Assembly: GCA_937931785.1 (NCBI GenBank)
Contig: CALHAX010000069.1
Coordinates: 1-53,836 of the forward strand
DNA length: 53,836 bases
Reading direction: 5' to 3'
From: an uncultured Hyphomicrobiaceae bacterium
Lineage (GTDB): Bacteria > Pseudomonadota > Alphaproteobacteria > Rhizobiales > CALHAX01
Position numbers and translations under genes: made by a program. Shown here in pieces: positions 22,147 through 24,082 of this stretch. Below the pieces are notes generated by a model, which ran no database searches, was not told the DNA's origin, and was given only the letters and a program-made list of their open reading frames with translations. Every line of letters starts with the position of its first letter. Position 1 is the first letter of the stretch.

Positions 22147-22184
22147 AAAAAACTCCGCAGATTTGAAAGTCTGCGGAGTTTTTT
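22147..22184. terminator. Bidirectional intrinsic terminator between phaB and NYN-LOTUS gene
   Basis: Arms from 22151-22163 and 22168-22180 pair almost perfectly (AACTCCGCAGA with TCTGCGGAGTT, one G-T wobble further in) around a TGAA loop. An A run precedes (22147-22152) and a T run follows (22179-22184). It can therefore stop transcripts from both convergent genes. Confidence 0.93.
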
Positions 22185-22205: not shown

Positions 22206-23855
22206 TCAGGTCCGCATGCGTGACCGCACGATACGTGGGAGCTGGCCAACATCCATGTCTGCCAAATCACCAAGAACGCCAGGGTTGACCGGTGGCGCAG
22301 CGAATTCTGCGTTCGCATCTTCCCGGCTTTCATTTGGCAGCGGCTGCTGGGCGACAATCGGGATTTGCGACATCGCATCAAGCGGGGGTAACCCGGCATG
22401 GCTATCTTGCTGAGCACTCTCGAACGTCTGTGCTGATTGTTGCGGTTGTGCAGATACTCCGCCAGCGAACCAGACATCAATCAAGCCCAATTCTTCCCGA
22501 GACAGGGTCATGCCCTGCGTGCGGCAGCGTGTGACGACAAAATCCCTGAAGCGGCTTGCAAACACACTCGCGGACGCGCCTTGCTCGAACCAAGGATCAG
22601 GTTCGCTGATGACATCGAGAACGAACCGCACATCGGTTGGGTGAATGTTGACACGTGCAGCAGCTGCACGCCCCCCGATGTTGGCCAATGTCTGATTGCC
22701 GTTCAGGCCGTTTTCCGTGATCTCCTTGGCAATCATGTCGAAAACAGCCTTGTATTCGACAGGACTGAGCGGCGGGGCCTGACATGCTTCCTGAATTCGA
22801 CCGATGGCTTGCTGCAAATCGAGTCCGGATGCCGGAACCGTCTCTGCAGGACGAACAGGTTGAGGTACTGGCTGCGCAGTAGCCGGTTGCGGTTCGACCG
22901 GTGCCGGCGTCTCTTCGCGTTGCAAGAATTCTTCTCGCGGGGCAGCGTCGGCTGCTGTTGATCCCTCCATCCGCTCCGTGTCGTACGCGAGGAACGGCGG
23001 TTCGTTTGTAATACGATATTCGATCGGCAAACAAGCGGTCAGGAACGCCCGAAAATTTCCGAACCCTGCCCAGTTGGCACCCGCGGTCATTTCCTTGCCG
23101 AGAGTTCGTTGCGCCCGATCAGCGAGAGATTCCATTGGAACCGGGCCGCTTGATTCCTTGATCATTGCAATGACCTCGGAAATGATCGCGTCCTGCTGCT
23201 GCTGACGCGTCTCCGGATCAATTGCAGCACTTTCCTCAACGCGCTCCTCGCTCACGCGATCCTCAACACTGTCTTCCAACAGCTCGATCAGATCTGCCTC
23301 GCGGATTTCTCCATCTGCAATAGCCGTATACGGCATTGCTGTATGATCGTTCACGTAAACAATCGTACGTCGCGCGTGGGCGCGAAGGCGATGCAGAACC
23401 GGTGTGAAATCCGAGTCACCCGAAAGAATTATGAACTCATCGAAATGCGTCTCGTGAGTCAGCAGATCGCGGATGTCCATGACCATGCGGATATCGGATG
23501 AATTCTTGAGCTGCGCGGTGAGCGGCGGGCAATCCACGATTTCGCAACCGGCACGCAGAAAATGATGGCGCACGAACGGGAAGGCGTTCTTGTCTGGACT
23601 TCCGTCGCTTGAATTGCGGCGTGCCACAGGGTTTCCGTAGGACCTGTTCATCACGATCCGACGATCCACATTCCCGCTCACATCATCTGATGATGACGAA
23701 ATCAACTGACCGCGTTCAATCTCACGAAGCCAGATGCCCGGTGCGCGGGCGAACTGACGTGCAGCAACAGCACTCTTGCGTTTTAGCGAGAGATAAATGT
23801 TGTCGTAGTCGATGAAAATCGCACTCAGGACCGGTTTGACCCGCTGACTTTCCAT
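22206..23855 (-). CDS. NYN (LabA-like) domain protein with LOTUS/OST-HTH domain
   Basis: I choose the ATG at 23855 (549 residues, MESQRVKP), with GGGCGG upstream; a TTG at 23888 is also in frame. The NYN/PIN-like fold (about 10-200) has FIDYDNIYLSL, VMDIRDLL and the signature IILSGDSDFTPVL, whose acidic residues coordinate metal in related RNases. Residues about 220-300 look like a LOTUS/OST-HTH RNA-binding domain (EVIAMIKESSGPVPMESLADRAQ, WAGFGNFRAFL). A Pro/Glu-rich linker leads to a second helical region (about 350-470), and the tail is disordered. It is probably an RNA-binding protein or RNase, soluble and monocistronic. LabA relatives act in clock output and other regulation, but no specific role can be inferred here. 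Confidence 0.87.
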   Translation of the reverse strand: MESQRVKPVLSAIFIDYDNIYLSLKRKSAVAARQFARAPGIWLREIERGQLISSSSDDVSGNVDRRIVMNRSYGNPVARRNSSDGSPDKNAFPFVRHHFLRAGCEIVDCPPLTAQLKNSSDIRMVMDIRDLLTHETHFDEFIILSGDSDFTPVLHRLRAHARRTIVYVNDHTAMPYTAIADGEIREADLIELLEDSVEDRVSEERVEESAAIDPETRQQQQDAIISEVIAMIKESSGPVPMESLADRAQRTLGKEMTAGANWAGFGNFRAFLTACLPIEYRITNEPPFLAYDTERMEGSTAADAAPREEFLQREETPAPVEPQPATAQPVPQPVRPAETVPASGLDLQQAIGRIQEACQAPPLSPVEYKAVFDMIAKEITENGLNGNQTLANIGGRAAAARVNIHPTDVRFVLDVISEPDPWFEQGASASVFASRFRDFVVTRCRTQGMTLSREELGLIDVWFAGGVSAQPQQSAQTFESAQQDSHAGLPPLDAMSQIPIVAQQPLPNESREDANAEFAAPPVNPGVLGDLADMDVGQLPRIVRSRMRT

Positions 23856-24082
23856 GTGCCGCCCTAACCCCCGATGAACCGCACGCAATAAACGTGTGTG
23901 TCGATACTATGCCGGGGCAGCCCGCTCGCAAGCGCGGCAAGAACACGGTTTGCAACTTACCGAAATTATCATTTTCTATCAGTTAGTTAGATGGAAATTT
24001 TTGAGCGTATAACCCGTGTACAACGTTCCCTATTCTTGCGTCAGCAACGCGAAACCGGATTCGGAATGATTCGTTGACGGGA

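Follow-up and report, generated by a model that had tools for sequence, protein, structure and literature searches.

A bacterial NYN nuclease-like protein with a predicted ROQ-fold domain, encoded opposite the PHB genes of a Hyphomicrobiaceae genome

The window analysed here is a stretch of 53,836 nucleotides from the genome of an uncultured Hyphomicrobiaceae bacterium, and the gene under study lies on its minus strand (22206..23855), opposite the polyhydroxybutyrate (PHB) genes. It encodes a protein of 549 amino acids with an N-terminal NYN nuclease domain, a LOTUS-like winged helix and a helical domain that very probably adopts the ROQ fold. The listed open reading frame (ORF; 22206-23888, minus strand) starts at TTG and yields 560 amino acids; the ATG at 23855 gives the 549-residue frame that an earlier interpretation made from the letters alone (the sequence-only reading) had placed here. 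This ORF is a real, well-conserved protein, more than would be expected by chance: it carries a Pfam NYN domain and is conserved in relatives, 19 of which align to it at 28-55% identity. No NCBIfam family matched the protein at E-values up to 1, and PDB sequence searches returned nothing useful. An AlphaFold2 model built from a 20-row alignment (A1) has a mean predicted local distance difference test score (pLDDT) of 75 and a predicted template modeling score (pTM) of 0.43; because the latter is low, the mutual arrangement of the domains is undefined in the model. The layout comprises the NYN domain (approximately residues 9-206), a winged helix (214-296), a linker (299-342; 22830..22961, minus strand) predicted to be disordered (pLDDT <50), a helical domain (344-464) and a disordered tail, with a short, low-confidence helix at the C-terminus.

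The NYN nuclease-like fold proposed by the sequence-only reading is well supported, as are its conserved acids. The domain (residues 9-206; 23238..23831, minus strand) matches Pfam NYN (PF01936) over residues 12-181 (E 3e-18; score 67.1 bits, cut-off 24.2), and the same Pfam family was found in all 20 family members. The sole other Pfam match of the window protein is PIN_11 (E 0.3, below cut-off), with no RING, HEPN or zinc finger among its Pfam matches. By fold, the domain matches VPA0982 (2qip; Z 17.1, root-mean-square deviation (rmsd) 2.5, 157 residues aligned) and the NYN domain of MARF1 (5yaa, Z 15.0; 6fdl, Z 14.9). Across 60 aligned rows, in which the window counts twice (as itself and through locus L001), D127 is kept in all 60, D16 in 59 (one gap), D130 and D149 in 59 each (one E apiece), D18 in 58 (one E, one gap), D147 in 56 (three E, one A; acidic in 59) and D121 in 51 (six E, two A, one G; acidic in 57). 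The loss of these residues in homologues, which the sequence-only reading had named as evidence against itself, was thus not seen. The acidic active-site patch of MARF1 is described as Asp358, Asp426/427 and Asp452 (PMC6294520), and D16, D121 and D147/D149 would be the counterparts, an assignment made by motif position and not by residue-level structural alignment.

The sequence-only reading had also noted a second helical region beyond the LOTUS domain; the region is present, and its identity, which that reading missed, is most probably a ROQ-fold domain (residues 344-470; 22446..22826, minus strand). For the whole-protein model, rows 4-13 of the VIA table (10 rows) are ROQ domains of Roquin-1 and Roquin-2 aligned to these residues, with Z 11.1-11.7, rmsd 2.5-3.3, 117-123 residues aligned and 9-13% identity. 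As a separate test, the corresponding domain of an Ancalomicrobiaceae relative (L009) was modelled alone from 21 rows (A2), none of them from the window's clade, giving a pLDDT of 94.6 and a pTM of 0.88. Foldseek ranks 1-22 for this domain are all Roquin (best E 5e-3; template modeling score 0.63-0.70 by query), and VIA, which re-aligns Foldseek's top 1000, returned 13 ROQ entries as rows 1-13 (Z 11.1-11.9, covering 113-117 of the domain's 128 residues). The tool itself warns that helical domains can score this high by chance; we argue for a specific ROQ match because of the coverage and of the gap to the next fold, NusB, at Z 4.9. A viral structure library gave no match (best E 0.25). At the sequence level, Pfam families PF21206 and PF18386, both of which match Roquin itself, matched none of 20 family members or 21 isolated domains, and PF21206 matched none of 121 genomes of the order. 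Weak Pfam matches of the domain to TetR_C_14 in 5 of 21 rows (best E 6e-4; L009 falls below the cut-off) were attributed to chance.

Between these two domains, the LOTUS/OST-HTH assignment of the sequence-only reading is plausible. Residues 220-300, where that reading had placed its LOTUS fold, are predicted by AlphaFold2 to hold winged-helix elements (residues 214-296; 22968..23216, minus strand; pLDDT block means of 70-92), and the one listed structural match over the middle domain is the winged helix of SelB (1lva; residues 222-298), at a middling Z of 6.8. No LOTUS structure was among the matches listed for the whole-protein model, a list filled by NYN and ROQ entries. Pfam OST-HTH (PF12872) matched none of 20 members at E-values up to 1, none of eight wider relatives at E-values up to 10 (HMMER filters drop most matches above 0.1), and nothing in the window's own genome. 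For a profile comparison, NYN proteins found with PF12872 served as the canonical bacterial OST-HTH set; the PF12872 search matched 33 of 150 Pseudomonadota genomes at E-values up to 0.001, and 31 of these exceeded the cut-off. By hhalign, a narrow LOTUS-like set did not match the canonical set significantly (P 0.05), and a wider set, which excluded L071 and the LOTUS-less rows s17 and s19 and whose segments were cut at start patterns picked by eye, gave P 0.001 with a probability of just 21% over 57 aligned columns. The wider-set score (22.15) exceeded all 150 column shuffles, the best of which reached 21.0. A LOTUS-like winged helix is therefore a plausible, if not proven, description of the middle domain, and the lack of such a fold, which the sequence-only reading had named as counting against it, was not observed.

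Because the LOTUS profile matches just 40 of 61 distinct ORFs that hold NYN and ROQ-like domains (L071-L073 being counted as negative although their middle stretch looks LOTUS-like), and because a single branch of a quick NYN tree parts 18 LOTUS-less rows from the other 44, NYN and ROQ-fold domains are the constant core of the family and the LOTUS-like domain is optional. In other words, the ROQ-fold domain is more constant than the LOTUS-like one. The tree (62 rows) has several long branches, and the LOTUS label was set by hand for L071, L072, L073, L147 and L148; support for the branch by the Shimodaira-Hasegawa-like approximate likelihood ratio test (SH-aLRT) is 80 in the full tree, and the 96 in the group table leaves out 35 ungrouped rows. 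A whole-protein profile matched 60 of 297 Hyphomicrobiales genomes at E-values up to 1e-15, including one matched in NYN only (G014) and three matched only in part (G016, G045 and G213). Across the class, it matched seven of 289 genomes: the window's, three of one family in which the match runs from NYN through ROQ, and three matched just in the N-terminal half. The ROQ-like domain alone was found in four of 289 genomes in the class (the window's and the same three of one family) and in four of 299 in the phylum (the window's, one of its order, G780 and G820). The last two share only the phylum with the window, and hold NYN, LOTUS-like and ROQ-like domains, with a weak second LOTUS-like match in G780; a wider ROQ search around G780 matched G780 itself only (1 of 21). 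The 30 loci fetched for canonical OST-HTH proteins gave no ROQ-like match.

Two further relatives were observed. A contig labelled Chloroflexota holds a full NYN/LOTUS-like/ROQ-fold relative (L010:5974-7542), which may reflect transfer or a mis-binned contig. The window's genome holds a second, distant NYN-like stretch (G000:C82:39756-39986), in a frame of 234 amino acids with 34% identity to residues 114-195 (E 4.6e-4).

The disordered tail of the sequence-only reading (residues 471-538; 22242..22445, minus strand) is likewise seen in the model, with pLDDT <50 over most of residues 466-532. It ends in the peptide LPRIVRSRMRT (residues 539-549; 22209..22241, minus strand), which follows a pattern recurring in family tails: P-x-[IM]-[VIF]-R-x-[RQG]-[LMS] is present in 26 of the 40 distinct LOTUS-positive members, and in none of 12 LOTUS-negative members with the end seen, the latter count resting on 12 since nine of 21 LOTUS-negative rows are cut at the locus end. 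L052, L055 and L058 come near the pattern by eye. We read this basic C-terminal sequence as a putative docking peptide. In other branches of the family, different terminal peptides are found, and these too recur by eye.

Pfam bears out the statement of the sequence-only reading that the gene sits opposite the PHB genes: it is convergent with a thiolase and short-chain dehydrogenase pair (phaA/phaB) that adjoins the PHB accumulation regulator gene phaR. Further neighbours are GGDEF/EAL, hydroxyacylglutathione hydrolase, methyltransferase, aminotransferase (hisC-like) and prephenate dehydrogenase genes. Among 28 loci of the family, phaB is convergent with the NYN gene in 14 (separated by 67 to 1840 bases, and by no more than 500 in 11 of these), a methyltransferase homologue is nearby in 18 (493 to 2504 bases), and either or both are nearby in 20, including the LOTUS-less L089-L095; a distant dehydrogenase of L079 (31%) was not counted as PhaB. 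Six of the 20 syntenic loci show the methyltransferase side only within the fetched stretch (L003 being cut by the contig end), and eight of the 28 loci show neither neighbour. More broadly, many of the 28 loci have homologues of the 17318-27025 genes (GGDEF/EAL, phaR, phaA, phaB, methyltransferase and aminotransferase) near the NYN-ROQ gene. Between the convergent phaB and NYN genes lies a hairpin flanked by A and T runs (22152..22179; RNA fold z -6.2 on the plus strand and -5.5 on the minus strand), probably a two-way terminator, which the consensus scan did not list; no Rfam family was found in the window.

Our preferred interpretation, which we hold with moderate confidence from the combined analysis, is that the protein is a structure-guided endoribonuclease, a one-chain analogue of Regnase and Roquin, for which cleavage, RNA binding, substrate selection and partner docking are all inferred. 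This would be a chromosomal, vertically inherited enzyme whose NYN domain cuts RNA via a metal-binding acid cluster. The ROQ-fold domain would pick the substrate, with the LOTUS-like winged helix assisting in many members, and this substrate would most likely be structured RNA (a stem-loop or duplex), with the disordered tail docking a partner through its conserved basic peptide. In eukaryotes, Roquin is reported to bind constitutive decay element stem-loops via its winged-helix part (PMC4614863), and its N-capped helix to read three phosphates, resembling ProQ/FinO (PMC9674577).

Several results weigh against this interpretation, and some of them favour a rival in which the protein is an RNase whose ROQ-fold domain serves as a protein-protein or dimerisation module, any selection of RNA falling to the LOTUS-like domain. 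For the fold itself, plain Foldseek on the whole-protein model returned ROQ first at rank 16 (E 0.13, probability 1.00), no Foldseek match of the L009 domain has an E-value of 0.001 or below, and the AlphaFold2 training set may include ROQ structures. For RNA binding, the stem-loop contacts of Roquin-1 (Q247, Y250, R251, S253, K259 and R260, with numbering converted from Roquin-2 and RLE-1 residues and the register set by eye from helices) are not kept in the alignment of ROQ-like domains with Roquin (A4). In the same alignment the window's domain has a net charge of -4 against +2 for the Roquin segment; eight window-clade rows range from -3 to -8, values of -16, -14 and -1 are seen in three rows from another family, and the Chloroflexota-labelled relative has -1. 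Many window-clade rows also carry the stretch DPWFEQGAS, acidic rather than basic. The ROQ-fold domain could bind protein instead of RNA. The LOTUS-less members speak against such a module: they retain the ROQ-like domain, with net charges of 0 to +5 in all 12 that the alignment includes, and their matching helix reads FVxKGL..xGH, with a basic R/K-R-Q before it in 12 of 18. On balance we regard the protein-module explanation as unlikely. A guide role for the ROQ-fold domain, as held in the structure-guided endoribonuclease interpretation, is suggested by its fold and its fusion to a nuclease; by net charge, the case for it is weaker in the window's clade than among the LOTUS-less members. A more far-reaching possibility, that the protein is a bacterial one-chain counterpart of Regnase and Roquin whose ROQ domain is truly homologous and recognises RNA hairpins, appears doubtful. 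Comparison of 38 ROQ-like rows with Roquin-1 by hhalign gave P 0.07 and a score of 15.2, within the range of 100 shuffles, which reach 22.0, and sequence-level homology was accordingly rejected as proof. At its end, this weak alignment pairs model residue 120 with Roquin 309, as the structural alignment does, which is suggestive only. Were such homology real, structure-guided mRNA decay with both parts would predate eukaryotes or have passed to them.

Two other explanations draw on the genomic setting. An anti-phage or toxin-like NYN nuclease would be consistent with weak PADLOC matches of the window protein to HEC-09 (34 residues, E 0.01) and NYN (49 residues, E 0.012), and with the partial relatives found in nine plasmid records; the three plasmids examined (from Sphingobium, a Comamonadaceae bacterium and Roseomonas; L137, L138 and L139) encode NYN plus LOTUS-like domains and gave no ROQ-like match. 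Set against this, 20 of 28 loci keep chromosomal neighbours, none of 50,697 phage records gave a match, and no plasmid record covers 80% of the protein. For these reasons a mobile defence gene was rejected as the principal interpretation, and such a nuclease seems highly improbable. By eye, the end of the Comamonadaceae plasmid protein resembles a diverged ROQ-like domain. Because the neighbours of the NYN-ROQ gene are kept in those 20 loci, an inherited cellular gene is favoured over a mobile one, and the gene looks to be chromosomal and inherited in place. The convergence with phaB in half of the 28 loci, mostly at close range, would suit a regulator tied to PHB metabolism through phaA/phaB; such a role is very unlikely, given the loci that show the methyltransferase side only or neither neighbour, and the strong hairpin, probably a terminator in both directions, that parts the genes in the window.

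The new element is the ROQ-fold domain carried by this bacterial NYN protein. ROQ domains have been described for eukaryotic Roquin proteins; in Roquin, an immune regulator of animals, the domain reads hairpin RNA. Among the matches listed in a literature search, none reports a bacterial ROQ domain in its title or at the start of its abstract. By Rosetta-stone reasoning, the NYN-ROQ fusion hints that the two partners, separate proteins in animals, belong together; it also offers a simpler system for asking how an NYN nuclease is steered to structured RNA, and adds a candidate specific mRNA-decay enzyme to the Hyphomicrobiales.

The NYN-LOTUS pairing in bacteria is not new, since Anantharaman and colleagues described the fusion of NYN/DUF88 (LK-nuclease) and OST-HTH domains in 2010 and proposed a standalone RNA-degrading enzyme (PMC2848206); the window protein resembles these in having an NYN-type nuclease followed by a LOTUS-like winged helix. 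The canonical Pfam OST-HTH proteins (30 loci) have frames of 206-356 amino acids and match neither the ROQ-like nor the LOTUS-like profile, whereas the window protein lacks a Pfam OST-HTH match and adds a ROQ-fold domain and a tail. MARF1/Limkain b1 shares the NYN fold (Z about 15) and LOTUS-type domains; it is not known to carry a ROQ domain. Roquin-1 and Roquin-2 are alike in the predicted fold of the ROQ-like domain (Z 11.1-11.9 over 113-123 residues) and differ in identity (9-16%), in RNA contacts that are not kept, and in that the window's domain is fused to a nuclease in a protein without a Pfam-listed RING, HEPN or zinc finger. Regnase-1, a PIN/NYN RNase, and Roquin are reported to act on overlapping stem-loops, jointly or separately according to context (PMC9371910; PMC5031192). 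The likeness to Regnase-1/REGE-1 lies in an NYN/PIN endoribonuclease that is partnered with a ROQ protein in some settings (PMC9371910), although two proteins are involved there and one chain here, and the window protein has no listed zinc finger.
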